Source of the DNA: Streptomyces sp. NBC_01353
GTDB taxonomy: Bacteria > Actinomycetota > Actinomycetes > Streptomycetales > Streptomycetaceae
Reading direction: 5' to 3'
NCBI RefSeq assembly: GCF_036237275.1
Contig: NZ_CP108352.1
Coordinates: forward strand, 372,001 to 436,000
DNA: 64,000 nucleotides
In this document: piece by piece, positions 1,705 through 61,012 of the stretch
How the letters are laid out: the number at the start of each line of letters is the position of its first letter
Numbering within the stretch: position 1 is the first letter of the stretch
Made by a program: the position numbers and the translations under genes
Notes under the pieces: model-generated
The model's input: the letters and a program-made list of their open reading frames with translations, nothing else
Database searches by the model: none
What the model was told of the DNA's origin: nothing

Positions 1705-3000
1705 TCAGGCGAGCGCGAAGTAGCGCAGCCACACGTACAGACCCGCGATGGTGACCGTGACAGCGGTGACGACCAGGCCGTAGCGGCTGAACTGCCAGAA
1801 GGAGATGTGGTGTCAGCTGCGGTCGGCGATTCCCACGACGACGACGTTGGCAGAGGACGCGATGATCGTCGCGTTGCCGCCGAGGCCCGCCCCCAGGGCG
1901 AACGACCACCAGAGCACGCTCGCCTCCTCCGTTCCGCCGGAGGAGGCGACGATCTCGGAGACGATCGGGCTGACCGAGGCGACGAACGGGATGTTGTCCA
2001 TGACGGCGGAGGGGATGACGGATCCGAACAGCAGGGCCATCGACGCGCCGAACAGCTGGCCCTCGGTGGCCCGGGCGGTGGCCTCGCCGATGTCGGTGAT
2101 GATCCCGGTCTGCACCATCGCACCGACCATGACGAACAGGCCGGTGAAGAACGCCAGCGTCTCCCACTCGACGTCGGCCACGACCTCCCGAGTGTTCAAC
2201 CGGGAGACGGCAACGAGTACCAGGCCTCCGGAGATCGCCACGACCGACGGCTCCAGGTGCAGGGCGGTGTGCAGGACGAAGCCGGCCATCACGATCGCGA
2301 CCACGACACCACTGACGACCAGTAGCCGGCCGTCAGAGATGGCGTCCCGCTCGCGCATCGCCATGATCGTGGCCGCACGCTTGGGGTCGTAGGAGAAGGC
2401 GGAGCGGAACATCCACCGGCACAAGACGACAAGCACAGCGATCAGCAGCACGGAGATGGGAGCCATATGGAGCAGGAAGTCGTTGAACGACAGACCTGCC
2501 CGGGAACCGATCATGATGTTCGGCGGATCACCAATCAGGGTGGCCGCGCCGCCGATGTTGCAGGCCATCACCTCGGCAATCAGATACGGCACTACCGGCA
2601 ATCCCAGGTCGCGGCATACCGCGGTGACCGGAGCGATCAGCAGCACGGTCGTGACGTTGTCGAACCAGGCGGAGAGGAAAGCCGTGGCGAGGATCAGCAG
2701 CACCATCAGGCGGTAGGGACGGCCTCGCGCCCGCTTGGCTGCCCAGATCGCTACGAACTCGAACAGCTCTGTCCGCTTGAGGACGGAGACGATCAGCGTC
2801 ATCCCCAGCAGCAGGAAAATGACATTCCAGTCGATGCCGGTCACGTCGGAGAAGAAGGCGTGCTCGGGGCTTGTCGTTCCGAGCATCAGCATCACCACCG
2901 CGCCCCCGAGCGCGGCGGTGACCCGATGCACTCGCTCGGTCGCGATCAGGACATAGACGGTGGCGAACACCGCCACCGTCAGCCACAAGGTGACGCTCAC
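1705..3000 (-). pseudogene. SLC13/ArsB-type permease with premature TGA
   Basis: An ion-transporter-superfamily permease (ArsB/NhaD/SLC13 type). About ten hydrophobic segments are visible, with the repeated signature motifs SAWFDNVTTV (about residues 110-119) and SAVMDNIPFV in the second half, and GAATLIGDPPNIMIGS at 151-166. Translation stops at TGA 1813-1815 after residue 395. The same frame continues for about 35 sensible residues ([18 protein letters not shown] and a last membrane helix) to a second stop at 1705. A single substitution (probably GGA to TGA) therefore removes the last helix. First gene of the operon; the substrate cannot be told from sequence (arsenite, Na+/H+ or dicarboxylate relatives). 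Confidence 0.8.
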
Positions 3001-3497
3001 GGAGGAAGCACCCCGCTCGGCTCATCCGGCAGCGAGACGTTAAGGGAATGCGTCGCAAATGAGCTGGTGGGGTAGTCATCGGCGCGGACTCCGTTCGTGC
3101 CGTGGCCATGAACACAAAGCACCAGCCCGACGCGACACTCCTCATGCCAGCAGCCGGATGGAGCTGTAGAGGCGTTCCTTGACCCCACCATCACCCGCAA
3201 CACCAGTCACCGGCTATCAGGTCTGACACCCATTTTTCGCATTGAGGCGCACGCCATCAGTGCCGTTCGCGCGTCGGCGAAATTCTTCTACCTGCGGCTT
3301 ATGGCTTCTGAAGCGCAGCTATCTGTGGGCAGCCAGGAATGCGCGAAAGGCTCCCGTGTCAGCAGTTTCTGTAGCGTTCAGCAATAGATGGCACGGCAGC
3401 GAGTGTGGACTTCGCGCGCTTGCTATCGGCTTTCGGGCAGACGTCCCGTAACCGGGCTGCGGATGGACCGTGTCACTCCGCTAAGTTCAGAGAAGCG
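3001..3497. other. Intergenic stretch without a convincing gene
   Basis: Nothing coding could be supported here. It lies between the permease start and the Tn3 transposase tail and presumably holds the promoter of the minus-strand transporter operon at its left side and the junction of the transposon remnant at its right. Confidence 0.4.
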
Positions 3498-3746
3498 GTG
3501 ATCTTCCATAACGCCCTGGACATCGCGGAGATCGTGCGGCAGTTGCTGGAGGAGGGATGGGAGATCGATCCGGAGGACCTGGCGCACATCTCGCCGTACC
3601 TGACGGAGCACATCAACCGGTTCGGCGAGTACAGCACGCACGAGCTCGGCATCCAGCCCGAGGCGTACGACCCGAAGCTGGACGTCGACTTCACCCAGCT
3701 CCGCGAGCAGGACCTGACCGCCGCTGGCCTCGGCCAAGCCGCCTGA
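3498..3746 (+). pseudogene. C-terminal remnant of a Tn3-family transposase
   Basis: The last about 80 residues (VIFHNALDIAEIVRQLLEEG, then ISPYLTEHINRFGEYSTHEL) match the C-terminal end of Tn3-family DDE transposases, where this block follows the catalytic core. Everything upstream, including the DDE residues, is missing; the open frame extends 93 bases further upstream into unrelated sequence, so the junction is near 3495. A non-functional scrap showing that a Tn3-type transposon once sat here. The recombinase remnant at 6490-7005 could come from the same kind of element. Confidence 0.75.
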
Positions 3747-3779
3747 GCCGGCCTCGGGCGGGTCGGCATCATGAGGGGC

Positions 3780-3989
3780 ATGGACGAGACGCGCGAGCTC
3801 ACCGAGGACGAGGTGATCGACCTGCTCGACGGCGACGACCCTTCCCTGGCGACATCACCGCGGCCGCGGCGCCGGCCGCCACCGCGCCGCGCCGGACGCG
3901 AGCGCGTGTCACTGCGAAGAAGGGTTCCTGATGGCCAGCTTGGACCCACCGGCTACCGGCCCGTGCGCGTGCGCGACCCCTTGTTCTGA
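3780..3989 (+). CDS. Short hypothetical protein after the Tn3 remnant
   Basis: A 69-residue frame starting MDETRELTEDEVIDLLDGDD. The acidic N-terminal half looks protein-like; the second half is arginine- and proline-rich and may be out of frame, since the next frame ends plausibly with RRTRARVTAKKGS at 3931. It may be a frameshifted short gene or the tail of the Tn3 element. I do not recognise it. Confidence 0.25.
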   Translation: MDETRELTEDEVIDLLDGDDPSLATSPRPRRRPPPRRAGRERVSLRRRVPDGQLGPTGYRPVRVRDPLF

Positions 3990-4017
3990 GTGCAGGGCAT
4001 GGGCGTCGCGCGGCTCG

Positions 4018-5256
4018 TCAGTGACGTAGCCGGGCGGCTGCGGCCAGAATCGGGGTGCTCACGACGGTGGCTGCGGCGCCGAGTGTGGTGTCGGTGGCCA
4101 GGATCCACCGGACGGTCTTCATGGCCAGGGTGAGGACTTCGCTGCCGCGCTGGCGCATGCCGGCCTCGAAATGGTCCACGGCGTCGGTGAGGGTGGCGGT
4201 GCCGTCGGCGGCGGCGCTGACGTGCGTGAGCAGGCTGGCGGCGTCGCGGATGGCCGCGCCCGCTCCCATTCCGGCGGTGGGCGGTGTGGCGTGGACAGCG
4301 TCGCCCAGCGCGGTGATACGACCCGCAGGCCAGGGCGCGAGATCCTCCGCGCGGGTGGAAGCGGCGTTGAAGCGGAATCCGGCCACGCTGTGCGGGTCGG
4401 CTTGGGCGATGACCTCGAGTGTGTGCTCGGCCCAGCCCCGCTCGCGGAATCGGCCGAGCAGCGCGGCCTGCAGTTCGCCGCCACGCAGGTCGCGCAGGGA
4501 ATCGGTGCTGGTGGATTCGGGGAACATGGCGCCCCAGATGTAGGTGGGTCCGGTGGTGACCGACATCCGCAACTCGGGAGCGTCGAGCGCGGTGTTGCCG
4601 ACCGGGTCAAGGAAGCCGACGTAGAGCGCTCCTCCGCGCGGGCCGATCGCCAGCCCCGATCGTGGCCCAAGTCGCTGATGCTCGCCGGGGCTGAGGTCTT
4701 GCCGGAGGGTGCGGCCGGAGAACCCGATGATGCCCGCCGGGCTGTTGGTCGGGCCTCCCGCCAGGTGGCGGGCGACTACCGAGTGGGTGCCGTCCGCGCC
4801 CACCACCAGATCCCCTGAGACCGGCGCCCCGTCGGTGAACAGCACTCGGGGCGCGCCGTGGTCATCGTGGCCGACGCCGGACACGTTGCATCCCAAGTGC
4901 AGGCCATCTCCGACGGCTTCGGCCAGCAGCATCCGCAGGGTGATCCGATCGACGTCGATACTTGCACTGTCGCTGAGGTCCGGCCCGTGGCCCAGCAGCC
5001 GGCCGCGGCGATCCCAGAACGCGTCGCGCTCGCGCAGTCGCAGCGCCGACCCCGATGCCAGCAGCCGCTGCATGATCTTCGGTTCCACCAGATCTTTTAG
5101 CGCCGACTGCGCCCGCTCATCCAGGGTGATGTGGTAGCCGCCCGTCGCCGCCACATCGGTGTCTCGGTCGAATACCGCCACCTCAAACCCCCGGCGACGC
5201 AGCCCCGCCCCCAATGCAAGCCCGCCGATCCCGCCACCAACCACGACTACCCGCAT
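4018..5256 (-). CDS. FAD-dependent monooxygenase (PHBH/UbiH fold)
   Basis: A flavoprotein hydroxylase of about 412 residues. The N-terminus MRVVVVGGGIGGLALGAGLR is the dinucleotide-binding GxGxxG of group A flavin monooxygenases; GDLVVGADGTHSVV carries the DG motif, and GRITALGDAVHATPP is the C-terminal GD motif that binds the FAD ribityl chain. I chose the ATG at 5256 because it directly precedes the Rossmann strand; an upstream ATG at 5286 would add ten unlikely residues. Substrate unknown, probably an aromatic or polyketide-like compound. It is transcribed away from the WYL regulator at 5354, and the inverted repeat between them suggests that regulator controls it. Confidence 0.88.
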   Translation of the reverse strand: MRVVVVGGGIGGLALGAGLRRRGFEVAVFDRDTDVAATGGYHITLDERAQSALKDLVEPKIMQRLLASGSALRLRERDAFWDRRGRLLGHGPDLSDSASIDVDRITLRMLLAEAVGDGLHLGCNVSGVGHDDHGAPRVLFTDGAPVSGDLVVGADGTHSVVARHLAGGPTNSPAGIIGFSGRTLRQDLSPGEHQRLGPRSGLAIGPRGGALYVGFLDPVGNTALDAPELRMSVTTGPTYIWGAMFPESTSTDSLRDLRGGELQAALLGRFRERGWAEHTLEVIAQADPHSVAGFRFNAASTRAEDLAPWPAGRITALGDAVHATPPTAGMGAGAAIRDAASLLTHVSAAADGTATLTDAVDHFEAGMRQRGSEVLTLAMKTVRWILATDTTLGAAATVVSTPILAAAARLRH

Positions 5257-5295
5257 ACCCGACACCGTCCTTCCGCCGCTGTTCACTGAACAGAA

Positions 5296-5350
5296 CCCAC
5301 CCTGACACCGGTAGTGGACACCGAATGGCCACTATCGGTGTCAGGGTGGG
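5296..5350. promoter_or_regulatory. Large inverted repeat between FAD monooxygenase and WYL regulator
   Basis: Two 22-bp arms (5296-5317 and 5329-5350) are inverted copies of each other with one mismatch, separated by 11 bp. The arms begin CCCACCCTGACACCG. The repeat fills the 97-bp gap between two divergent starts and ends 3 bp before the regulator's ATG, so it is the obvious operator for the WYL protein and probably controls both genes. Confidence 0.75.
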
Positions 5351-7310: not shown

Positions 7311-8111
7311 TCAGCCGCCCGAACCACCGAGGAGAACCGGGCGTTCCGATCGGAGCCAGGATTGCTCGGCCACCATCTCGGCCACGTCGCCGCGGGCAAG
7401 AAACGTTGCCCAGGGCTCGTGGCCTCGCCGGCCGAGCCGTTCGATGCGCTCAGCCTCGTGGGACTGGACGGCATCCAGTGCATCGAGAACTGCTGCCGGC
7501 CGTGCCCCGTAGGCGGCGCAAAGGGCGTCGAGGCGGCTCCGCAGGGTGTACTCACCGGCGATCGATGCTCTTCGCTGCTGCTCGGCGGGACGCAGCGGCA
7601 CGGCGTACCAGGCCAGCTGTGCGAGGTCGTCGAGGGCATGGCCGGGCGCTGCGAAGTCCCAGTCGATGAAGCCGGCCAGTCGGTCGCCGTTCCAAACGGA
7701 GTTCCACGGGCCGAGATCGCCGTGCCGAATGACCATGCCGGGCCTCCACTCGGCCTCCTGGCCCTGCCATCGCGCGTCGGCCGGCGGCTGGAAGTCCCGG
7801 ACAGCGTCGTGGTAGTCGCGCAGCCAACGCCCCAGTTCACTGATTCCGACGGTCGACCGAAGAGCCGACGGCCAGGGCGTGAACGCGGGTTCGCCGTGCA
7901 GCAGCGACAGGACCTCATCTGTGCCGTCGGTGCCAAGGACTCGGGGTGCCTGAGTGACTCCCACCGTTTCCAGGTGGGTCAGCAAGGCGTGCACCGCAGG
8001 CGTCCACTCGCCGACTGGCCGGCGGATCGTCTCGCCGATCCACCGCACCGTGGTCACGCTCCCCCTGTCAGTGGCGCCGTCCTCGATCATTGGGTCACCG
8101 TAGCCCGCCAC
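7311..8111 (-). CDS. APH-family phosphotransferase
   Basis: An aminoglycoside-phosphotransferase-like small-molecule kinase of 259-266 residues. The catalytic loop HGDLGPWNSVW (H130, D132, N137) and the metal-binding FIDWDFAAPG (D150, D152) are intact, as is the downstream DLAQLAWYAVPL helix that typically follows. The N-terminal ATP-binding lobe is short. A start at the second methionine (8090) is equally possible. Such Streptomyces proteins usually have no proven antibiotic substrate, so resistance should not be assumed. It stands alone, with the IS630 element 80 bp upstream of its start. Confidence 0.85.
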   Translation of the reverse strand: MAGYGDPMIEDGATDRGSVTTVRWIGETIRRPVGEWTPAVHALLTHLETVGVTQAPRVLGTDGTDEVLSLLHGEPAFTPWPSALRSTVGISELGRWLRDYHDAVRDFQPPADARWQGQEAEWRPGMVIRHGDLGPWNSVWNGDRLAGFIDWDFAAPGHALDDLAQLAWYAVPLRPAEQQRRASIAGEYTLRSRLDALCAAYGARPAAVLDALDAVQSHEAERIERLGRRGHEPWATFLARGDVAEMVAEQSWLRSERPVLLGGSGG

Positions 8112-8193
8112 CCACGCCAGTGTCCTGACGCGCCCATCACAAGCACCATCCAGACCCTCTGAGCTGTGATCTCACCATGGATGCTGCCAGTTA

Positions 8194-9362
8194 TGGGACA
8201 GCCCTTACTGATCTTTTCGTTAGTTCAGTGGGGTTGGTGTATGGAGGGTGAGGCCGGTGTGGGCGAGGAAGGACCAGGGCAGTTGGGGGTTGTCGTTGAT
8301 GCGGTGGATGCCTTGTTCGGTGGCGTCGGCGACATCGGCGAGGTGGTCGCCGGCGAGGTTGGCGAGCTCGCGTTTCTTGAGCGAGGACCACAGCAGTTCC
8401 ACCGGGTTGAGCTCAGGAGCGTAAGCCGGTAATCGCTCCAGGGTGAGCCAGTCCTGCTCGGCGACCCAGGCCCGCATCGCCCAGCTCCAGTGAGCCGACA
8501 GCCCGTCCCAGACCAGGACCACCCGCTCGCCGCGGTAGAACGTCTTCATCTGCTCCAAGACCTCGATGAGTCCGGCGGTGTCGTAGCTGCCGGGCTTGAG
8601 GTGGAAGCACAGGCGAGGCCCGCGATCGGGGTCGGCGGCGTGGAATCCCAGGGCCCCGGCCATCGACGCGCGCTTCCAGTTCAGCCGGTGCCGCAGAAGC
8701 GGGGTGCGGCCGCGGGGTGCGTAAGTGCGGCGGACCTGCGGCAGCAGCGAGACTCCCGATTCGTCGAGGAAGACGATCCAGGCACGTGTGTTCACCGCCC
8801 CTTTTGATCCGCGGCCACTCGTGCGCGACCCAACGGGCGATCTCGGACTCGTCGCGCTCGACCGCCCGACGTTCGGGCCGCTGCAGACTCCATCCGAGCC
8901 GGCCGGTCAGCAGCCGCCACACCGAGGCCTTCGACAGCGTTACCCCTGTCACCCGGTCGACCACCAGGCCGACTCGTTCCAGAGTCCACAGGTCGGCCTC
9001 GAAGCCATGGGCCTGGGCTCCTTGCTCCAGCGCAGCCCGCACCTGCTCAACCTGGGCATCGTCCAGTTTGGGCGGGCGACCGGTGGCCGGGCGCCGGCGC
9101 AGAGCATCGGCGCCGGCCTTCTCCCAGACCCGCTTCCACCGCCGCACACTCTCGTCACTGACCCCCAGCATCCGTGCGATCTCAGCACCCGAGCATCCCT
9201 GATCGAACAACTCGGCCGCCCGCACACGCCGGGCCTCGGACAACTGCGGCCGCGTCAAAGGAGGAACAACAGACGAAGGCTTGAAAGACACCGCACCAGG
9301 ATCCCACCAACAACTCCGCCACACCCACCGAACAAACGAAAAGATCAATAAGGGCTGTCCCA
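8194..9362 (-). mobile_element. Complete IS630-family insertion sequence
   Basis: The element is bounded by terminal inverted repeats of about 28 bp with one mismatch (left from TGGGACAGCCCTTACTGATC, right the inverse with AATAAGGG). TA lies directly outside both ends (8192-8193 and 9363-9364), the target duplication expected for IS630/Tc1-mariner elements. It is 1169 bp long with a transposase in two overlapping frames on the minus strand. Both ends and all catalytic residues are present, so it may be active or recently inserted. Confidence 0.9.
8220..9294 (-). CDS. IS630 transposase in two frames (possible -1 frameshift)
   Basis: The first frame (to 8413 if read on) holds the N-terminal helix-turn-helix (LFDQGCSGAEIARMLGVSDE, later RRWKRVWEKAG) and a linker domain ending HEWPRIKRG. 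The second frame, open from 8795 to 8220, has the DDE catalytic core: VFLDESG (first Asp), LVWDGLSAHWS (second Asp) and LNPVELLWSSLK (Glu). The frames join at an AAAAGGGG run near 8807, where a shift of -1 fuses RIKRG to the second frame. The initiator is uncertain; a GTG or ATG near 9290 fits better than the frame's first ATG, which lies in the terminal repeat. Confidence 0.85.
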
Positions 9363-9610
9363 TAAATGATCTCAGAGCCGGTGTGCACGTGGCTGTTCGC
9401 TGTGCGGCCCGCCCGCCTATCTGGCGGGGGTCAGGTTGTGCAGGCGCGCGATGCCATGCATCGCGTGGTGCATGCCGTCGCCTTTGAGGCGGCAGTCGCG
9501 GAGACCTGCTTGTGGGAGTTGTTGGTCGTTACGGCTGCCGGGCAGGTGAACGCCTCCTCGCCGCGCAAGAGCAGATGGCGCACATCCGTGATGTGGGACG
9601 GCCCTTGGGC

Positions 9611-10915
9611 TCAGGACGATGGCCCACCCGATCCCGCGCCCCTCTGGTAGATGTCCGGAATGCCGTCCGCATCGTCGTCCCGGTCCTCCTCATCCCACAG
9701 TCGCTGGTACACGCGGTTGCGCCGGCGCAGCAGCGCCGCGGCAAGGACCGCGGCAGCAAGGGAGCCGATGAGGACCGCGGCCTTGATGTGCTCGGCCTCG
9801 GTCGCGTTCGGGAAGGCCAGCTCGCCGATCAGGAGCGCGACCGTGAAGCCGATCCCCGCCAGGGCGGCCAGCCCGAGGACGTCGGCCCAGGCCAGGTCGG
9901 GGTTGAGCACCGCCCTGGTGAAGCGGGCGGCCAGGTAGGTGCCGAGGAAGATGCCGAGAATCTTGCCTGCGACAAGGCCGATGACGACACCCAGGGGTTC
10001 GGGGTCGGTGAATACGTGACCGAGGGCGCTGCCGGAGATGCTGACGCCGGCGGCGAACAGCGCGAACAGGGGGACCGCGACACCGGCGGAGAAGGGGTGC
10101 ACCAGGTGCGAGACCCGGACGCCCGGGGGTGCTTTCTCCCCTTCGTCGCGCGTCGTGCGCAGGATCAGACCCATCGCGACACCGGCGACGGTTGCATGGA
10201 CCCCGGAGTTGTACATCAGCGCCCAGGTCGTGATGCCCAGCGGCACGTACCACCACCAGCCGCGCACCCGGAAGCGCTGGAGGGCGTAGAAGAGGACGAG
10301 CCCGGCGATCGCGCCACCCAGCGCCCAGAAGTTGAGGTCGGAGGTGAAGAAGATCGCGATGATCAGGATGGCGCCGAGATCGTCGACGACGGCCAGCGTG
10401 AGCAGGAACGCCCGCAGCGCGGCAGGCAGATGGGTGCTGATGACGGCGAGGACCGCGAGAGCGAAGGCGATGTCCGTGGCCATCGGGACGGCCCAGCCGT
10501 CAAGACTTCCCCCTCCGGCCGTTGCGGTGGTCGCGTAGAGGGCGGCCGGTACCGCCATGCCGCAGACGGCGGCGATGACCGGCAGCGCGGCGGCGGCCGG
10601 TGTGCGCAGCTCGCCGACCACGAGCTCGCGCTTCAGCTCGATGCCGGCGATCAGGAAGAAGACCGCGAGCAGGCCGTCGGCGGTCCAGTGGCCGACCGAT
10701 AGATCCAGGCCGAGGGCGGGTAGCCCGAAGTGGAAGTCGCGGATATCCGCATACGACTCGCTCCACGGGCTGTTGGCCCAGACGAGCGCGACAACGGCGG
10801 CCACGAGGAGGACCAGGCCGCCGACCGTCTCCGTGCGCAGGGCCTCGGTGACGGCCTGCCGCTCGGGCCAGGGCAGTAGACCGAAGATCACCTTGCGGGG
10901 GTGTGGCTGCGTCAT
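9611..10915 (-). CDS. nhaA: Na+/H+ antiporter NhaA
   Basis: An NhaA-type electrogenic sodium/proton antiporter of 434 residues. Eleven or twelve membrane segments are visible. The active-site region is intact: MATDIAFALAVLAV (about 146-159) and LLTLAVVDDLGAILI with the paired aspartates at 178-179, plus GIELKRELVVGELR near 91-103. The start MTQPHPRK at 10915 is preferred to an upstream ATG at 10987 that would add 24 proline- and arginine-rich residues. The charged C-terminal tail (WDEEDRDDDADGIPD) is outside the usual core. Single gene; it exports Na+ in exchange for protons. Confidence 0.93.
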   Translation of the reverse strand: MTQPHPRKVIFGLLPWPERQAVTEALRTETVGGLVLLVAAVVALVWANSPWSESYADIRDFHFGLPALGLDLSVGHWTADGLLAVFFLIAGIELKRELVVGELRTPAAAALPVIAAVCGMAVPAALYATTATAGGGSLDGWAVPMATDIAFALAVLAVISTHLPAALRAFLLTLAVVDDLGAILIIAIFFTSDLNFWALGGAIAGLVLFYALQRFRVRGWWWYVPLGITTWALMYNSGVHATVAGVAMGLILRTTRDEGEKAPPGVRVSHLVHPFSAGVAVPLFALFAAGVSISGSALGHVFTDPEPLGVVIGLVAGKILGIFLGTYLAARFTRAVLNPDLAWADVLGLAALAGIGFTVALLIGELAFPNATEAEHIKAAVLIGSLAAAVLAAALLRRRNRVYQRLWDEEDRDDDADGIPDIYQRGAGSGGPSS

Positions 10916-11251
10916 GGGGGCGGGCCTCCGGGGCATGTCGGCAGATGGGCGCACAGGCCCTCGGACGCCGATCAGACTTCCCGGCACACCAGCGTCGTAC
11001 CTTGACGCGTTCTTTACACCCTAGTGGTCTGCCGGTGGTCTCACCAAGGGGCTTCTCACCTGCCGAAATGCGGTGGGAAGGTTCGCACTGGTCAAGGCAC
11101 CGTCAAGGCGCGAGGCAGGGTTGTCGGACGGTGGTCCTCACCCGTTCCTGGTCTTCGTCCTCCTTGGTGTGCGGGCCTGCTTCGCGGTTCCGTACGGAGG
11201 CGATGAAAGACCCTTCGCCCGCTCCTTGTTCTCTCCCCCTCCGTCAGTGCG

Positions 11252-14112
11252 TCAGTGCCCCGGCTCATGTCCGTGAGCAGGCTGCGACACGTGCCGGCCG
11301 GCGGGGCGGGCGAGCAGGTGGCGTGGGTCCGTCGCGCGCGTGATCGCCGTCTCGACGGCTGTGATGCGGTCGGCGAGCAGGCCGAGGGCGGCGACCGCAC
11401 GGGTCAGCGGGTCGTCTCCGGAGCCACCGAGTGCCCGGGTGCGCGTGTACGCGGCGCCAACGGCGGCCCAGCGGGCGGCCTGCACCGCCGTGAGGGTGCC
11501 CCGGAGTGTCGCGAGCTTGAGGAGGTTCGCCTCGGCTTCGGTGATGAGCGTGTGGGCCTCGGCCGTGTAGTGGTCGTCGATGACGGCGGCGAGCTCGGTG
11601 TCGTTCATGGCGGGCGAGATGCGGGCCGCGATCCGGTTCATGTTGCGGTAGGAGCCCTGGAGCCGGAAGGGCGGTTCGGTTCGTGCGTCGTCGGACTGCG
11701 AGGCGGAGGCGATATAGGCAGCGTTGACCGCGAGGACGGTTGCGCGGGCGGTCAGCAGATGGCGCAGGACGGCGAGGACGCTGTCCAGTTCGGCAGGGGC
11801 GTAGGGGTGGGTGAGCCGCTCGCGGCGCGCGGTCGGGTCGTCGCCCGCCAGCCGGATCAGGATCTCCAGGTCGGCCCGGTCGCGGCCGCCGAGCGGGGCG
11901 AGGACCGGGTGGGAGGTGAGGGCGTTCTCGATGAAGCTCAGCGCGAAGGCGTCGTCCTTGCCGGTCAGTACATCGCCGAGGTTCCACACGTCGGCCCGGT
12001 TGGCGAGCATGTCCGGGACGCGGAAGAGCTGTCCTGACTCGGTGTAGGGGTTGCCGGCCATGCAGACGGCGAAGCGTTTGCCTCGCAGTTCGTGGCCGTT
12101 CAGGGTCCGGGTGGCGTCGCACAGGGGGATGAACTTCTGCAGGAACTCCGGCGACGTGTGCTGGATGTCGTCGACGTACAGCAGGACGTTGTTGCCCGCC
12201 GACAGGGCGAAGGCGATCTTCTCCAGTTCCCGGCGGGCGGCGGCATTGGGTGCTTCAAAGCGGGGTCGAGGGAGGTCGTGTTCTGGCCGAGGGCAGGGCC
12301 GTCGACCTTGACGAGGAGCAGGCCGAGGCGGTCGGCGACGTACTCGATCAGCGTGGTCTTGCCGTAGCCGGGCGGGGAGAGGAGCAGCAGCAGGCTGTGG
12401 GAGTCGGTCCGCTTGGCGTCTCCTTGCGCGCCGATCTGCTTGGCGAGGTTGTCGCCGATCAGGGGCAGGTAGACGTCGTCGACGAGGCGGTTGCGGACGA
12501 AGGACGACATGACCCGGGGCCGGTACTCGGCCACCCGCAGCCGTGTGCGCTCGGCCGTGACGAGTTCCGCGCGGTGCTGCTGGTAGGCGCGGAAGGCGGG
12601 TACGTCGTGGTCGGCGAAGGCTCGTGTCCTGGAGAGGAACTCGTCCAGTTGCAGTCTCAGCGCGCGTCCCTCGACGCGGCGGTGTGTGCCGAGGAGTCCG
12701 GTGACCGTGGCGGTGGTCGGGGCGCCCAATTCGTAGCGTTCGAGTTCCGGGCTGAGTTCGACGGCGACGGCCTCGGCGAGTACGCCGTCGTCGGGCTGCT
12801 CCCCGGACGCCGACGCGTAGGCGGTGAGCCATGCTTCGACGAGTTGTCGCCGTGCGTCCGGCTTGGTGAGAGCGGCGAGGGCGTCGTCGTACGCGGCGGT
12901 GCCTATGGTGCGGCGGAACTTGTCCAGGAGCGTGCGAGCCGCGTCGGAGACGGCGAAGCCCGGCGGACCGGACGCCAGCTCGTCGACGAGGTAGGCGGCG
13001 GCGGTGGCGTCGCCGATCTCCTCGGCCAGCTCCCGCCGGAGTCCGTCGACGGCTGACGCGGTGCCGAAGAGGTCACGGGCCTGGGTCAGGGAGATCGCGC
13101 GGTGGGTCCACTGGTCGCGGGCGTCGGCGGTGGTGGAGTGGGCCCAGAAGGCCTGGGCGGCCGCGCGCGCCGCGGCTGGGTACCGTAGCAGTCCGGCGCT
13201 CTCGTGCAGCCCGAGCACCGTTTCCAGGATGGCCGCCGCGTCGTGGTCGTGGACGCCGCGCTCGTAGCCCTCGTCGTAGGCGGCCTCGGCCGCCCGGCGC
13301 GCAAGTGCGCCGAGGTCCGCGCCGGCCAGGCTGTCGGCGCCGTGCTCGGCCAGCAGGCGTGCCGCCAGGTGCTCGGAGCGGTAGACCTCCGGTGACGGAG
13401 CGGTAGACCTCCGGTGGCCGAACTCGCCCTGCTCGGCCAGGCCGTCACCGGTGCACTGGCCCCCGCCGGCCGTAGAGACGAAGATGCGGTCGTCGAGCGA
13501 GATGTGAGGGTGCCTGCCCAGCACGTGGTTGTCTCGGGTCGTCTCCACCCAGTCGACGTCGTGCGAGGGAGGGAAGACGTGGTCGCGCTCGCCCTGGGCA
13601 TCGAGGAACATCGTCTCGCCGGATGGTCCGATCGACCAGCGCAGGACGCGGAGGTCGTCGGCCTGCTCCCCCGTTTGGAATACCGCGAGCAGTCGGTCCT
13701 CCACACGGCGCAGCCGTAGCAGATGGGCGCCCCGGAAGTAGCGGTGCAGCGCGGTGAATTCCCGTATGAAGTCGGGGTTGTCCAGCAGTCCGGGCACGGC
13801 GCTCTCGGGCAGCGCATTCAGGTCGCTGTCGTACAGCGCGAAGACATCGAGGACCGAGGTCTCAGCCCGCCCCACGGACGATGTGTGGCGGCCGAAGAGC
13901 AGGACGTCGTCAGCGACGGCAACGATGTCCCGGGGCAGGCAGTTGTGGTCGGTGCGGATGCGGTGGGTGCCGGTGAGGGCGAGCTCTCCGGAGCCGAACT
14001 CGGCGGTGCGGGCCTTGTTGAGGGCCGCGGCGCGCCGGGTCAACTCGGTCGCCTGCGCGGTGAGTCGGTCGCGCAGCACGGCGTACGTGTCCTGGTCGAT
14101 CCGGGTGCTCAT
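11252..14112 (-). pseudogene. DUF3686-type 'DNA repair ATPase' with large internal deletion and frameshift
   Basis: The N-terminus (RAAALNKARTAEFGSGELAL through HISLDDRIFVSTAGG) and the C-terminal AAA+ module (LLSPPGYGKTTLIEY Walker A; NVLLYVDDIQH Walker B; RFAVCMAGNPYTESGQLF) match the big DUF3686 ATPases that accompany flotillins. From memory those are about 1,600 residues; here only about 950 remain. The middle is missing: the text jumps from STAGG at about 13,470 to PSPEVYRSEHLAARLL at about 13,390. The junction contains a 22-bp tandem duplication and a short inverted piece. A further frameshift lies at 12256-12260 between SLDPA and FEAPNAAARRELEKI. Not expected to function. Last gene of the flotillin operon. 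Confidence 0.78.
13375..13416. repeat. 22-bp tandem duplication at the ATPase deletion junction
   Basis: GGAGCGGTAGACCTCCGGTG occurs at 13375-13394 and again at 13397-13416, a direct repeat with a 22-bp period. It encodes the EVYRSE segment twice in different frames. It marks the right-hand breakpoint of the deletion inside the ATPase gene and looks like a replication-slippage or end-joining scar. Confidence 0.85.
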
Positions 14113-51694: not shown

Positions 51695-53215
51695 CTACGT
51701 GGGCGTCGTTTCTGGGCGTACGCCCGCCGTCGGTGGGGGGGCGGCGCCGTTCAGGCAGCGGTCGAGGAGTGCGTGCATGCGGGGTACGGGGAGGGACGGG
51801 TTGGCGGCAGCGCCCTCTGCGGTGCGGGGGTCGGCGAGCAGGACCTCCAAGACCCCCGGTGTCAGGCTCGGGTTGGCGGCAGCTGCCCGGCACACCGACT
51901 CGTCGGGGTCGTCCACCGGGGGTTCGGCAAGGGTGGGATCGGCTGCGGCCAGGGCGCGTATCTCGGGGTCCGGGTGGCCGATGAGGTGGGTCAGCCCGGT
52001 GCGGGGGAACGCGCGCAGGGTCAGCAGGTGCGGACGGTGTGCCGGGCGAGTGACGAAGACGTCCAGGAGGAGGTGTGGCGGAGCCAGGGGGTGGTGGCAG
52101 GCCAGCCGGATCCGTACCTCCTCGTCGTCGTCCTGCGCGAGTGTCTCGACGAGTTCTGCGGGCAGGCCGGGCCAGCTCGCCGCAACCCGGCGGAGCACCG
52201 GTTCCTCGGACGCGGCGCAGGCGGCGAACCAGTCGGGGAACGGCTCGGGGGCCGACTCAGTGATCGGGCAGGTGCAGTCCGGACCGTGCCCAATGACCCT
52301 GTCCATCGCCCAGTACTCGGCCCAGGTGCGGGGGAAGGGGTGGAGGCGGGCGCGCATCCGCACGCCCTCGTCCGGATCCTCCCTCAGCTCGGTGATCAGG
52401 TCCGGTCCCAGGTCCGGCCGGCGGGCGACCCTCTCGCGAACCTTTGCCTTGGGGTGGCGGGCGAGCCGGGCGACGGCATCGGCCGGGGTGTGGCGGTTCC
52501 AGGTCAAGGCGTGCACCGTGTCGTCTGCGAAGCACTGCTCGACGAGCGCGGGGGACAGGGCGCAAGTGCCGAGCACCGACCACTTGCTGTGCGAACCGAT
52601 GGACGGCAGCTTGGCCTCCACCGCTTCCGGGTCCAGCTCCCAGCTGCTCTCCTGCGCCGCTTCCCGTACGGCGGGGTCGGGGTCGTCGAGCAGGGCCACC
52701 CTCTGCGCAGCAGTGAGCGACTGCCACCCCCGGGCGGCGCGTACGCGGAGCCCGGGGTGCACGTGCCCGGCCATGGAGCGGTCGAAGGACAGAGGGGTCT
52801 GCCGAGAGAAGCTGAGCTCCTGGACGATCTCGTGTTCGGTGAGCATGCCGTCCTCGCCGCCGTCCTGGGCGGTAAGGATGGTGACGAGGATGTCGTCCGG
52901 CAACGGTCTGACCCATCGGGGGCGGGGGTGAGGGCCGCCGGCGAGCCGCCCACGGACGACCCCCGACGGGTCCGTTGCCAAGAGGGCGAGTCGTGAGGGG
53001 TCGACGTACTGGTTGCGGGCGAGCGCGCGGCGAATTCCCGTGGCCGGGTGGCGGAGGGCTGCGTCGATGACGGCGTCGGGCAGGTCGCGGCCCTCGCACA
53101 TCAGCTGGCCGGCCTCACCGGCCGCGCGATCCACCAGGCGTATCAGTACGTCGGAGGGCGCCGCCGGATTGAAGGCGATGCCGCGCAGCCACAGTTCATA
53201 CAGAGAGTCGGACAC
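51695..53215 (-). CDS. Leucine-rich-repeat-variant/HEAT-like repeat protein
   Basis: A 506-residue repeat protein. Degenerate 24-residue helical units recur: HPATGIRRALARNQYVDPSR, ARHPKAKVRERVARRPDLGP, GHPDPEIRALAAADPTLAEP, AANPSLTPGVLEVLL. Such LRV/HEAT arrays bind proteins. A possible metal site is GHGPDCTCP at about 300. The start is a GTG at 53215. No partner can be named; the neighbouring genes are unrelated. Confidence 0.7.
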   Translation of the reverse strand: MSDSLYELWLRGIAFNPAAPSDVLIRLVDRAAGEAGQLMCEGRDLPDAVIDAALRHPATGIRRALARNQYVDPSRLALLATDPSGVVRGRLAGGPHPRPRWVRPLPDDILVTILTAQDGGEDGMLTEHEIVQELSFSRQTPLSFDRSMAGHVHPGLRVRAARGWQSLTAAQRVALLDDPDPAVREAAQESSWELDPEAVEAKLPSIGSHSKWSVLGTCALSPALVEQCFADDTVHALTWNRHTPADAVARLARHPKAKVRERVARRPDLGPDLITELREDPDEGVRMRARLHPFPRTWAEYWAMDRVIGHGPDCTCPITESAPEPFPDWFAACAASEEPVLRRVAASWPGLPAELVETLAQDDDEEVRIRLACHHPLAPPHLLLDVFVTRPAHRPHLLTLRAFPRTGLTHLIGHPDPEIRALAAADPTLAEPPVDDPDESVCRAAAANPSLTPGVLEVLLADPRTAEGAAANPSLPVPRMHALLDRCLNGAAPPPTAGVRPETTPT

Positions 53216-55795: not shown

Positions 55796-55825
55796 CCCGG
55801 CGAACCTTCACGGTCACAGCACTAG

Positions 55826-56327
55826 TAGTGCTTGGTCATGTGCGGTCTGTGATGGCGGTCTTCTTGATCGGTCGTGTCGTTGACCGGGGTGTGCTGAGTG
55901 GGGAGTCGGCTGCGGTCTGGTGTGATCTGGAAGACTTCGCGGCGGAGATGTTCGAGCCGTTCGCGCGGGCGGATCAGCGACGGTGGGGCGGGGTCTATCT
56001 GCGGGGCCTGCTGCTGGACGGCGGGCGCAGCGCACCGCGAAGCTCCGCTGGCGCATCGACAACGACTACCGCGAGATGAAACAGGCCCTGGGCCTGGCCC
56101 ACTTCGAAGGCCGGACCTGGCCAGGCTGGCACCACCACGTCACCCTCGTCTCGGTCGCCCACGCCTTCTGCACCCTGCAGCGACTGAGCCGATCCCCAAA
56201 AGAGACGGCGCCGGCCTGAGCCTCTACCGAGTCGTCCGCGAGCTGCAGCTACTCCTCGTGATCTGGACCGGCGCCTGCCCCACCTGTCAGCGACATGCCA
56301 GACCCCTCACCACATGACCAAGCACTA
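55826..56327 (+). mobile_element. 502-bp IS701-derived miniature element, copy A
   Basis: Ends are inverted repeats (TAGTGCTTGGTCATGTG inward on both sides). CTAG lies immediately outside both ends (55822-55825 and 56328-56331), the 4-bp target duplication known for IS701-type elements. Inside are the first about 58 residues of an IS701 transposase (MAVFLIGRVVDRGVLSGESA) and the last about 64 (RWRIDNDYREMKQALGLAHF to PKETAPA, stop 56219); the catalytic centre is deleted. It is non-autonomous and matches copy B. Confidence 0.9.
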
Positions 56328-56396
56328 CTAGTACATACGAGGTTTTACGCTCGCCGCACGTTGGAAGCATCGCCAGACAGAGAGACGGGGGGCACC

Positions 56397-57095
56397 ATGG
56401 ACACGATCACGCTGGCGGAGTTGATCGAACAAGCGGTTGCGGATCCTAGTCAGTCCAACCTGACGGGCAATCTTGAAGACTTCATGCGTCTTCTCAGTGA
56501 AGAGAACCTTTCTCGCTTGGAAGAAGAACACCAGGGAGCTTTCGCCTTTCTGGCCTTTCATCCGTCTGCCGACATACATGTGGCGGATTATGTGCGGAGT
56601 GGGACTCTGGCTTCGGACACCGGCCCTGGGGTCCTCGCCTTTTTCACTCTAGACGAAGGGGCCACTTCCTCACCCCCCTCCCCTTTGTCAGATGGGATCA
56701 CCGTGGAGGGCGATGTCCACATTGCCTATGAGGTGACGAGGCTACTCTTCTCCCCGCAAGTGGCGCCCCCACTCCCCGGGGTCCTCTTCACGGGACGCGT
56801 GTCTGGTGTAGGCGATGCGGTCTACGTGCCTCTCGGAGACCTCGCTGACACGGAGCAGGTGCGGTCGCGACTAAGGCTCGCCTTCTCGCTGGCGAACCAA
56901 ACGATGTCAACTGACGGCGGCCGCTCTGATTTTTCCGACAGATTCGCCAAGGCGTTGCTGTCCGAGAGAATTGAGTATCAGCGCACTGGTCGGCGCTCCA
57001 TGGGCGAGTGGATGAGGAAAAGCTACCGCCGCATCGTCGACAACGGGTTTGAACTCGCGGCCGTGCTCGGCGGCGTACTAGGGGGGCAGCTTTGA
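56397..57095 (+). CDS. Unrecognised protein A of the cassette
   Basis: A 232-residue protein I cannot assign. The N-terminus is helical (MDTITLAELIEQAVADPSQS, NLEDFMRLLSEENLSRLEEE). A beta-rich part follows (AFAFLAFHPSADIHVADYVR, DTGPGVLAFFTLDEGATS, LPGVLFTGRVSGVGDAVYVP), then two helices (VRSRLRLAFSLANQTM; SDRFAKALLSERIEYQR) and a glycine-rich hydrophobic end (LAAVLGGVLGGQL). The ATG has GGGGGG upstream; the open frame extends back into the mobile element. Its stop is one base from the next start, so A and B are translationally coupled. Confidence 0.7.
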   Translation: MDTITLAELIEQAVADPSQSNLTGNLEDFMRLLSEENLSRLEEEHQGAFAFLAFHPSADIHVADYVRSGTLASDTGPGVLAFFTLDEGATSSPPSPLSDGITVEGDVHIAYEVTRLLFSPQVAPPLPGVLFTGRVSGVGDAVYVPLGDLADTEQVRSRLRLAFSLANQTMSTDGGRSDFSDRFAKALLSERIEYQRTGRRSMGEWMRKSYRRIVDNGFELAAVLGGVLGGQL

Positions 57096-57096
57096 C

Positions 57097-58842
57097 ATGA
57101 TTCTGGCTAACCTGCCACAGCCATCACGAGCTCTGGCTCGAATAGCGGACCTGTACCTGTATGACCTCCAGACCTTCGGTCGTCTGACATCGGTTACGCA
57201 TATGCTCGACCGGCAAACGTACGGGCGGTACGAAGCCCTAAGGGGCCAGCCTATTCAGCGATTCTATGGGATGCTCGAATCCGCGGCTGGCTTGCGGTTC
57301 TCACCGGAAGAGCGGTTTCCATTCTTTTACCACCTCGACGAGACGCCGCCCGGTGCCCCACGCATGGCACCTTGGCCGAGGAGTGAACCACCTGCGGGAT
57401 ACACAGGGGACTCACACGGGATTCGGCCCAGCACGCTGGCCACCGCCCTGATCAGGGGCTGGGGGCTCCGAATGCTGGGTACCTCCAAGGGGCGGCTGTT
57501 CAAAGCGGCTCTCTGGCAAGTGAAGGTCGCCGGGTTGGAGAGCGCGCTCACGCTGCTGTTCGACCTGCTCCAGGCAGGTTTCACGGCCACCGACGACGTG
57601 CGCTGGGCTTGTCGCCTGCTACTGCACGGCCGGTGCCGGGCCGGCTCCGACGAAGCGATGGTGACCGCCTTCCTCGACGGCACCGACGCTGAGGCATCTT
57701 CATGGCGCTCCCTGGCGCCTGACGCCGCCTGGCTCGACACGGATGCCGGTGAGGTCCGAGCGGAGGGGCACATCATCAGCGCACTCCTGGCGCGTGGGGC
57801 CCAGGAGATCGACCGTGTCCGAAGCTCTGGCGACTACGATGCGTGGCACGTCGGACAGATACAGCTGTGCAAGCTGTTGCCCACCATCCACTCCCTGGTT
57901 GACGAATTTTTGGGAGTGAGCCGCCTGCCGCTGAGCTGGCGAGCGAAGCTTTCCCAGTGGGAGGAGATTTCCTCCGACGGAGTAGGGGTGTTTGGGCTCG
58001 CCAATTTTCCTGATGCGCCCCTGCCCTCATGGAACGGCACAGAGGCGAAGTACGCTGCTCAACTCATGGAGCGCTACAGGGCACGTGGTGGTGGAAATTG
58101 GCGGAGTCGATTCTTCCGAGAAAGGCTTCTGGTTCCCGATGGGCTGCGCGAGAGAATCCTCGACGACGCAACGCTAGTAGACGCCCCGGAGGAATGGAGT
58201 GGGCTTAGTCGAAGGGTTATTCGGCCGTGGATGGCCGCCAACCGGTCGTTCGCGACGCCGGACCGTTCGCGTTCAGCACCGATTCCAGCCGAAGACCTCG
58301 TGAACCATCCAGCTGTAAAGTCGGCATTCCGAACGCTTGGTGTGGCAGATCAAGCGGAGCAAGTTCGCATGACTCGTGCCTACATCGAGGGTGATTCCTT
58401 TAAGAGGCCAACTGCGTCGCCGTTCATGCGAAGGCTTGACAGTGGCGACGAGAGCGAAGAACAAGTGCCGGTTTTCTACATCAACCTGGGCCTCCAAAAG
58501 CCCTCCTCCGAAGAGCAGCGGGTCTTCGACGCCCTCAACGAAGTGCTGCCAAGTGCCCAGGCAGAGTACATAGAGAACGAGCAGACTCAGGAGATTGAGG
58601 CTGAGCTGCGGATCAGGACTTATCCGTACTCAATGCGAGCTTTGATAGACGCGGTCGTACAGCGCGTAGCCGTCGGGGATACTGAGCAGGCGATAGAAGG
58701 GCTTATCGACCTTGTCGTCTTGGAGCCAACCGCAGGCCCCGCATGGCGGTCGCTGGCGGGTCTCTTGGCTGACTCAGGTCACGAGCGCGAGGCTTCGCTT
58801 GCCGAGCTCTGGGCGACTGCGATGCAGTTGCCACATGAATGA
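57097..58842 (+). CDS. Unrecognised protein B of the cassette, TPR-like C-terminus
   Basis: A 581-residue soluble protein I cannot assign. It is mostly helical: SRALARIADLYLYDLQTFGR at the start, VAGLESALTLLFDLLQAGFT near 150, and VGQIQLCKLLPTIHSLVDEF near 255. The middle is tryptophan- and arginine-rich (WSGLSRRVIRPWMAANRSFA). Residues about 440-575 are different: VFYINLGLQKPSSEEQRVFD, then a TPR-like helical pair (DTEQAIEGLIDLVVLEPTAG, WRSLAGLLADSGHEREASLA). No membrane helix, signal peptide or known catalytic motif seen. Follows protein A by 1 bp. Confidence 0.75.
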   Translation: MILANLPQPSRALARIADLYLYDLQTFGRLTSVTHMLDRQTYGRYEALRGQPIQRFYGMLESAAGLRFSPEERFPFFYHLDETPPGAPRMAPWPRSEPPAGYTGDSHGIRPSTLATALIRGWGLRMLGTSKGRLFKAALWQVKVAGLESALTLLFDLLQAGFTATDDVRWACRLLLHGRCRAGSDEAMVTAFLDGTDAEASSWRSLAPDAAWLDTDAGEVRAEGHIISALLARGAQEIDRVRSSGDYDAWHVGQIQLCKLLPTIHSLVDEFLGVSRLPLSWRAKLSQWEEISSDGVGVFGLANFPDAPLPSWNGTEAKYAAQLMERYRARGGGNWRSRFFRERLLVPDGLRERILDDATLVDAPEEWSGLSRRVIRPWMAANRSFATPDRSRSAPIPAEDLVNHPAVKSAFRTLGVADQAEQVRMTRAYIEGDSFKRPTASPFMRRLDSGDESEEQVPVFYINLGLQKPSSEEQRVFDALNEVLPSAQAEYIENEQTQEIEAELRIRTYPYSMRALIDAVVQRVAVGDTEQAIEGLIDLVVLEPTAGPAWRSLAGLLADSGHEREASLAELWATAMQLPHE

Positions 58843-58866
58843 GGCAAAGCTCCATTCGCCACCTAG

Positions 58867-59368
58867 TAGTGCTTGGTCATGTGGTGAGGGGTCTGGCATG
58901 TCGCTGACAGGTGGGGCAGGCGCCGGTCCAGATCACGAGGAGTAGCTGCAGCTCGCGGACGACTCGGTAGAGGCTCAGGCCGGCGCCGTCTCTTTTGGGG
59001 ATCGGCTCAGTCGCTGCAGGGTGCAGAAGGCGTGGGCGACCGAGACGAGGGTGACGTGGTGGTGCCAGCCTGGCCAGGTCCGGCCTTCGAAGTGGGCCAG
59101 GCCCAGGGCCTGTTTCATCTCGCGGTAGTCGTTGTCGATGCGCCAGCGGAGCTTCGCGGTGCGCTGCGCCCGCCGTCCAGCAGCAGGCCCCGCAGATAGA
59201 CCCCGCCCCACCGTCGCTGATCCGCCCGCGCGAACGGCTCGAACATCTCCGCCGCGAAGTCTTCCAGATCACACCAGACCGCAGCCGACTCCCCACTCAG
59301 CACACCCCGGTCAACGACACGACCGATCAAGAAGACCGCCATCACAGACCGCACATGACCAAGCACTA
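58867..59368 (-). mobile_element. 502-bp IS701-derived miniature element, copy B (inverted)
   Basis: Same length and coding remnants as copy A but on the opposite strand, with CTAG at 58863-58866 and 59369-59372. The minus strand encodes MAVFLIGRVVDRGVLSGESA and, after the internal deletion, LRWRIDNDYREMKQALGLAH to its end at 58975. The outer CTAG supplies the TAG stop codon of the symporter gene. Confidence 0.9.
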
Positions 59369-61012
59369 CTAGAACGCCTCCGCCTGCGTACGTTCACCAG
59401 CGCCAGGACCCTGCCCCGGGCGCCGACTTGGAGGGGTGGCGCGTCGCCATGCGCCGGAACTGCCCAGCCGGCCCATGAGGAAGGCGACGGGTATCGACAC
59501 GAGGACGACCGTCTGGAGCGGGAACCAGTCGACGTGCCAGTCGGGGAAGAGCGCCAAGGGGTTGCCGGAGAAGACCGGGCCGGACAGCTGCAGCCCGACG
59601 GCGCAGCCCAGACCTCCGTACAACGTCCAGAGCAGGCCGGTCCGGGTGTACCCCTTCCAGAAGAGGGAGTACACCAGTGCCGGAAGCAGCGAGGAGGCGG
59701 CCACCGCCAGGGAGAGAGCCGTCAGGAACTGGACGTTCCACCCCTGGACCCAGACCGCCAGGGCGATGCTCAGTACGCCGACACCGGCGGACGCCAGGCG
59801 TGCGGCGGCCACTTCCCGGCCCTCGGTGGTGCGTCCACGGCGCAGGACGTGGGTGTAGAGGTCGTGGGCGATCGTCCCCGCTGCCGCCAGGGTGACACTC
59901 GCGACGACGGCGAGTGTCGTGAGAAAGACGCCGGAAGCGACAAGGACGACGAGCAGCGCCCCGCCGGCATCGGCGTTGGAACCCCCCGCCAGTTCGCCGG
60001 CGAGCATCACCAGCGCACTGCTTCCGCCCGGATCGGCGGCCAGGATCGCCGGTGCGCCGATCAACGCCGAGGCCGCGAAGCCCATGAGAGCCGTGGTGAA
60101 GCAGAACGCGCCGACGATCGTGAGGGTGTGGCGCACCGTACGGCGGGCGATGGCGGCGTCGGGAGCCGTGCCTGGTTGCAGAGCGACGTGAGGCAGACAG
60201 GCCACACCCAGGACGATGGTGATCATGAGACCGATGAAGTCCAGGGTGGCCGCGGGCTCGGCGCTGCCGCCGAAGCGGAGGCCAGGGCGCAGGTAGTCGG
60301 CGGGACGACCGCTTCCTTGTCCGGCCGCGGCGATCAGAGAGTCGGCGCTCCAGTGGAAGCGGTGCAGCAGTACGGCGGACACTCCCAGCGCCACGCAGAG
60401 CAGCACCACCGTCTTGATCACCTGGATCACAACCGTTCCGCGCATGCCGCCGAACGCCGTGGTGCAGACGACGAGAGCACCGATCATGACGACCGCCGTC
60501 TTCTCGATGCCTGGACCGGAGAGCCCCAGCAGCGCCGCGGTGGTCACTCCCGCACCGGAGAGCTGCACGACCAGATAGGGAACGCAGATGCAGAGGGTGA
60601 CGACGGCGACCGCGATCCTCACCGCGCGCCCCGGGGCACGCAGACCGAACGTGTCGCCCAGCGTGTAGCCGGCGCGCTCGCGCAGGGGCCCGGCGAGCAG
60701 AAGCAGTACACCGAGGGAGAGGACGGTGCAGAGTGCGATGAACAGGCCGTCGTACCCGAAGACGGCGACGCTTCCCGTGGTGCCGAGCACCGTGGCCGAG
60801 GAGAGGTAGACGCCGGAGAGGACGAGGGCCCCTCGCAGGGGCCGCAGTGTGCGGCCTGCCGTGTAGAAGTCGTTGACGCGGTCCCTCGGTGCCCCGCTGA
60901 GGACGCACAGGAACAGGATGGGGACGATGAACGCCACGAAGCAGCCGAGAATCAGTGCCTGGGTCTCCGTGTCGAGGGTGCCGGTCGCGGCGAGCGAGAT
61001 CTCGGGTCTCAT
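59369..61012 (-). CDS. Sodium:solute symporter (SSS family, ActP-like)
   Basis: A 547-residue permease with about 13 membrane helices. SGAPRDRVNDFYTAGRTLRP, LVLSGVYLSSATVLGTTGSV, YTLGDTFGLRAPGRAVRIAV and ACLPHVALQPGTAPDAAIAR are typical of SSS transporters of the acetate/monocarboxylate group, as is pairing with a DUF485 protein. It overlaps that gene by ATGA at 61012. The C-terminal tail (RRPGQGPGAGERTQAEAF) ends on the TAG inside the CTAG target site of the miniature element, so the original C-terminus may have been trimmed. Substrate probably a small carboxylate. Confidence 0.88.
   Translation of the reverse strand: MRPEISLAATGTLDTETQALILGCFVAFIVPILFLCVLSGAPRDRVNDFYTAGRTLRPLRGALVLSGVYLSSATVLGTTGSVAVFGYDGLFIALCTVLSLGVLLLLAGPLRERAGYTLGDTFGLRAPGRAVRIAVAVVTLCICVPYLVVQLSGAGVTTAALLGLSGPGIEKTAVVMIGALVVCTTAFGGMRGTVVIQVIKTVVLLCVALGVSAVLLHRFHWSADSLIAAAGQGSGRPADYLRPGLRFGGSAEPAATLDFIGLMITIVLGVACLPHVALQPGTAPDAAIARRTVRHTLTIVGAFCFTTALMGFAASALIGAPAILAADPGGSSALVMLAGELAGGSNADAGGALLVVLVASGVFLTTLAVVASVTLAAAGTIAHDLYTHVLRRGRTTEGREVAAARLASAGVGVLSIALAVWVQGWNVQFLTALSLAVAASSLLPALVYSLFWKGYTRTGLLWTLYGGLGCAVGLQLSGPVFSGNPLALFPDWHVDWFPLQTVVLVSIPVAFLMGRLGSSGAWRRATPPSRRPGQGPGAGERTQAEAF

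Follow-up and report, generated by a model that had tools for sequence, protein, structure and literature searches.

What are the two genes that lie between a pair of identical, oppositely oriented miniature elements in Streptomyces sp. NBC_01353, and what might their products do? The genes, here called A and B, were analysed within a 64,000-nt stretch (the window; positions 372001-436000 of contig C1 in a genome of 8.57 Mb and two contigs). A first-pass annotation, made from the sequence of the window, had described them as genes of 232 and 581 codons set one base apart, the only cargo between inverted elements, less GC-biased in codon choice than their surroundings and of no recognised family. 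The open reading frames (ORFs; Table 1) agree with this description, and no other convincing gene lies between the two elements. The guanine-cytosine fraction at third codon positions (GC3) is 0.674 for A and 0.684 for B, against a mean of 0.858 and a minimum of 0.819 for 12 neighbouring gene calls, a contrast somewhat inflated by a rough gene finder that prefers ORFs of high GC3. Apart from a weak TPR match in B, neither protein matches Pfam, NCBIfam, PADLOC or PHROGs. A and B form a real, previously unlabelled mobile two-gene unit.

A coupled pair that recurs at unrelated loci

The TGA stop codon of A is followed by one base and then by the ATG of B, with a purine-rich AGGGGGG 10 nt ahead of the B start. 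The longest ATG ORF of A opens at 56295, and alignment with the relatives favours the start at 56397.

Five further pairs were found, in Streptomyces glomeratus, S. lavendulae, Labedaea rhizosphaerae and two actinomycetes designated G867 and G1100. A single-sequence search with A retrieved S. glomeratus (E 6.9e-36), a two-row A profile retrieved G867 (E 3.6e-63) and a five-row profile retrieved G1100, a member of Labedaea's family (E 4.7e-73). A motif scan of genome_contigs, which comprises 84,980 species by its description, gave S. lavendulae CCM 3239, L. rhizosphaerae DSM 45361 and again S. glomeratus; four of the 12 stretches, from these three genomes, are real and eight have no A-profile match at E 1. 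The scan needs one motif that the G1100 pair does not fit, so relatives are undercounted.

The first-pass annotation had proposed looking for recurrence at different loci and had named homologues that are never adjacent as a finding that would speak against it. The opposite was found: B lies directly after A in all six distinct pairs, at unrelated places in the six loci. The two genes overlap by 4 nt in four pairs and are separated by one base in the window and by two in G867. Identities among the six members are 33-54% for A and 23-42% for B, the window A being 33-44% identical to the other five. In leave-one-out tests every A was recognised by a profile of the other five (E 3.6e-60 or better), as was every B (E 3.2e-36 or better), and reversed-sequence controls gave no match at E 1. 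All 15 A pairs, and all but one of the 15 B pairs, are linked by pairwise BLASTP at E 1e-3. Because A is conserved in five other genomes with a B homologue next to it each time, the recurrence exceeds what chance would produce.

In S. lavendulae the pair occurs twice (G1033:C1, 113276-113959 and 8577753-8578436; loci L026 and L033). These copies are mirrored, about 113.3 kb from each end of the 8.69-Mb chromosome, as expected of long terminal inverted repeats, whereas the G867 pair lies mid-contig (4.47 of 8.19 Mb). Only three BLASTP pairs link different loci among the 85 gene calls around the six pairs (two L018-L022, one L022-L044); we take the linked genes to be an oxidoreductase, a sigma factor and an ABC transporter. 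None of the neighbours is shared by three loci. In an unrooted six-taxon tree S. glomeratus joins Labedaea and G1100, and the two other Streptomyces stand outside this group, in conflict with taxonomy. In this strain, in Labedaea and, mainly for B, in S. lavendulae, the pair has a lower GC3 than its neighbours have on average; in the other three its GC3 is near that mean. Unrelated neighbours, the conflict between tree and taxonomy and the GC3 differences together show a rare, horizontally transferred two-protein unit.

No relatives were found in IMG/VR (A alignments and motif), among plasmids (queries: the window A, two other A proteins and B) or among phages (queries B and the Labedaea A, the window A not being among them). 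B alone as query gave no accepted relative outside its own genome in genomes, plasmids or phages; the genome searches with B used single sequences, which at 23-25% identity are too insensitive to reveal lone B genes. Literature searches listed no title about the pair.

Several candidates were set aside by score: for B, rows L002 of genome G071 (E 7.6e-4; its match is in a frame that overlaps a further long ORF) and L005 (E 0.009); for A, ten rows from the genus (E 0.002-0.008) and row L024 of genome G964 (E 1.1e-3), which has no obvious ORF. B rows L003 and L004 (E 0.005 and 0.007), aligned over the TPR part 501-574 only, were also set aside; their ORFs match a three-row B profile at E 4.6e-7 and 4e-9, which is read as common TPR, and L004 is by eye a long TPR-like protein. 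For the viral motif match L025 no ORF is listed in the frame concerned, and the profile gave nothing at E 1.

Table 1 Coordinates of the A/B pairs and of the elements flanking the window copy.
Feature	Position	Strand	Remarks
Gene A, window	56397..57095	+	232-aa alpha/beta protein, undescribed family
Gene B, window	57097..58842	+	581-aa helical protein, TPR-like C-terminus at about residues 492-581
GGGGGG	56387..56392	+	likely ribosome-binding site of A
AGGGGGG	57080..57086	+	inside end of A; likely ribosome-binding site of B (coupling)
Left miniature element	55822..56331	+	insertion sequence-derived, internally deleted; terminal inverted repeats 21-22 bp
DDE transposase N-terminal piece	55828..56037	+	Pfam DDE_5, E 1.8e-4, 21.6 bits; curated cut-off of 27 not reached
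Transposase C-terminal piece	56040..56219	+	resembles frame end in full-length relative; itself without Pfam match
Right miniature element	58863..59372	-	inverted, identical to left
A/B, S. glomeratus	L018 9977-10666 / 10663-12171		
A/B, G867	L022 8295-8993 / 8996-10564		
A/B, S. lavendulae	L026 1753-2442 / 2439-3827		
A/B, Labedaea rhizosphaerae	L031 3012-3701 / 3698-5299		
A/B, G1100	L046 9459-10136 / 7873-9462	-	

Properties of the two proteins

An AlphaFold2 model of A built from five sequences (pLDDT, the predicted local distance difference test score, 78.3; pTM, the predicted template modelling score, 0.81) has a core with the order strand, two short helices, strand, helix, strand, strand, helix. 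Invariant positions across the six members include, in the N-terminal half, E11, G24, F51-L52-A53-F54, D59, A63-D64-Y65-V66, L71, D74 and G76-P77, and further on H108, R115, P124, L126-P127-G128, Y143, R160, T197, E204-W205 and G225; H55 is replaced by D in one member. Of 47 Foldseek rows, 27 are thioredoxin-fold proteins to judge by their titles, none with an E-value better than 0.29, and a second fold listing contains many such titles with scores that are not convincing. Fold searches of the PDB and a viral library gave no confident match, and comparison of A with a thioredoxin profile revealed no similarity, the reversed alignment scoring equally poorly. A is a conserved alpha/beta protein whose predicted shape is weakly thioredoxin-like.

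The window A contains no cysteine and the other five contain 0-2, with no conserved column and without the redox CXXC motif of the thioredoxin family; shared disulfide chemistry is therefore unlikely. The glycine-rich hydrophobic end noted in the first-pass annotation proved to be peculiar to this copy, since other A proteins end in sequences such as GDIVSVVGLAL or GDVVSVIGLLK. The best 19-residue hydropathy means of the six A proteins, 1.01-1.58, are low for a membrane helix. In the PADLOC-DB scan of the 12 A and B proteins the single match, a weak one, was to CARF7, at residues 137-208 of the G1100 A (L046:9462-10136; E 0.0027); the other five A proteins gave none at E 1.

B is predicted to be helical (pLDDT 64.7, pTM 0.63), and the TPR-like end proposed at first pass is borne out: profile matches to TPR chains of the PDB reach E 2.3e-22, and the last 90 residues superpose at 1.5-2.2 Å in the four best structure rows. 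Single-sequence Pfam TPR scores are under the curated cut-offs. Structural matches cover mainly residues 223-581; for residues 1-222 there is hardly any coverage, and no relative was recognised. Conserved residues comprise R338, F339, E342, R343, L345 and P347. NCBIfam matches of the B relatives (C39_PA2778_fam up to E 1.1e-4, MamA E 0.0011, GapS6b E 0.039 and others) are all below cut-off and fall in the C-terminal part, where they are read as TPR. In the shorter, 462-residue S. lavendulae B (L026:2439-3824) a single stretch stands out as strongly hydrophobic, its 19-residue mean reaching 2.33 at residue 169, against no more than 1.75 in the remaining B proteins.

Flanking elements and the history of the cassette

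The two 510-nt elements are 100% complementary to each other, and each carries terminal inverted repeats. A full-length relative in genome G024 (1453 bp; L049 1501-2953) contains a 423-codon open segment whose end resembles that of the transposase remnant; 943 bp between its two matching parts are missing from the 510-bp elements. The elements are internally deleted copies of a DDE-transposase insertion sequence of about 1.45 kb. Terminal inverted repeats and a DDE_5 remnant below cut-off place them among DDE_5-type derivatives, presumably IS701-like.

Did these elements carry the pair? The genes between them are foreign in composition, and no full-length match other than the two identical copies turned up in the genome, the third match being 32 bp long (15 of 104 candidates scored), which makes it plausible that the elements moved the pair. 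There is, on the other hand, a considerable chance, if short of an even one, that the pair came to lie between two independent insertions and was never moved by the elements, a question of its origin rather than its nature. CTAG adjoins all four element ends, which is compatible with a composite transposon and equally what independent insertions into that target would leave; searches of the genome yielded a single copy of the 3.55-kb cassette, and the five other A/B loci lack the exact repeat core. The first-pass claim that the pair moved as a unit holds in that it recurs at different loci; the flanking elements are its putative carriers here.

Six loci from five relatives were compared in search of an empty site, and none could be read. 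In those loci the symporter to the right of the cassette aligns to window position 59460, and the left-flank genes are not beside it. Synteny breaks at or near the cassette.

Possible role and relation to known systems

Six loci were scanned with Pfam, NCBIfam and PADLOC, and the window and Labedaea pairs with PHROGs, and no enzyme signature above cut-off was found in A or B. In agreement with the first-pass annotation, no nuclease, NTPase or toxin motif was recognised in either protein, nor was a membrane part. The surroundings of the window copy look ordinary and include a GNAT acetyltransferase, an acyltransferase, a sodium:solute symporter with a DUF485-like gene, a PucR-type regulator and an LRV/HEAT-repeat protein (506 aa, window 51695-53215, LRV E 2.9e-9).

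We tentatively favour the interpretation that A and B are an obligate transferred pair acting as one complex, in which B serves as scaffold and A does the work, and that this unit is maintained as a conflict or stress module. Coupled translation would produce the two proteins together, and since tight coupling is kept in six loci, both products are presumably needed together, most likely in one complex. TPRs are binding modules, and the C-terminal repeats of a helical scaffold B may hold a client or partner. A is the better conserved of the two proteins, which suggests that it is the working part on a varying recognition scaffold. It would be a small alpha/beta domain, perhaps of thioredoxin-like shape without redox cysteines, in which the polar invariants D59, D64-Y65, D74, H108 and R115 and the LPG loop form a putative binding or catalytic site. 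The unit may be retained for an occasional benefit; this would account for its being rare, scattered and divergent. The most likely source of that benefit is conflict (with a phage, competitor or mobile element) or stress. Rare, scattered distributions of this kind commonly stem from conflict with phages or competitors, but the traces left by stress or quality control would be no different.

Narrower readings are less probable. Anti-phage defence proper, in which one of the two proteins would detect infection and the pair would arrest growth or block the phage, is doubtful. A small, coupled, patchy, horizontally moved and diverging pair would suit it, as would the GapS6b (antiphage protein) matches in two of five B relatives (E 0.039 and 0.18) and the CARF7 match in one of six A proteins, but these lie far under any cut-off or over the common repeat. 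No PADLOC match at E 1e-3 was obtained among nine window proteins around the cassette, so that the defence role suggested at first pass is unsupported so far. The toxin role raised with it is without evidence, and a toxin-antitoxin-type pair is very improbable: the genes are two, coupled and mobile, with one small, but both proteins are large for the common types, no toxin family is matched and B is scaffold-like.

A chaperone or adaptor pair for quality control, secretion or modification, composed of a peptide-binding A and a TPR protein B and spread by transfer without being a conflict system, is likewise unlikely. TPR domains bind proteins, and thioredoxin-like domains such as the b' domain of protein disulfide isomerase (PDI) bind peptides; such chains are among the fold matches of A. 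No client gene accompanies the pair in six loci and no chaperone family of Pfam is matched.

New bacterial immune and competition modules are often found among patchy, coupled, horizontally moved gene pairs. It is rather unlikely that A and B found an undescribed class of mobile immune or conflict module, a cysteine-free thioredoxin-like sensor or effector on a helical TPR scaffold. Co-localisation surveys could miss the pair, which has no defence-library match and no defence gene among the nine scanned neighbours. The six members and their invariant residues make knock-in and point-mutant tests feasible at once.

Among known systems, redox-less thioredoxin-fold proteins such as the PDI b' domains resemble A through the weak fold matches, and the LPG loop may lie near the position of the thioredoxin cis-proline; A differs in its extra helices, weak scores and lack of profile similarity. 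The likeness of B to TPR scaffolds (MamA, designed TPR proteins) is confined to about its last 90 residues. SseB and TY-Chap, described in PMC9503650 as predicted peptide-binding chaperone domains in prokaryotic conflict gene clusters, would lend the chaperone interpretation a precedent. However, the predicted strand order of A differs from the five-stranded meander given there for TY-Chap2, and single-sequence scans of six A proteins gave no match at E 1 to a Pfam family of this type. A further comparison is with EACC1, an actinobacterial two-gene unit. As described by Kaur et al. (2020, PMC7159879), a single membrane helix bearing a glycine patch is conserved in the 5' protein; it is not seen in A, whose hydropathy maxima are given above. 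The 3' partner there frequently contains a caspase-type peptidase and less often a cyclase; in six B proteins Pfam gave only weak TPR and unrelated matches, with neither caspase nor cyclase recognised. What EACC1 shares with A and B is an actinobacterial setting and a small 5' gene followed by a larger 3' gene, sometimes with superstructure-forming repeats.
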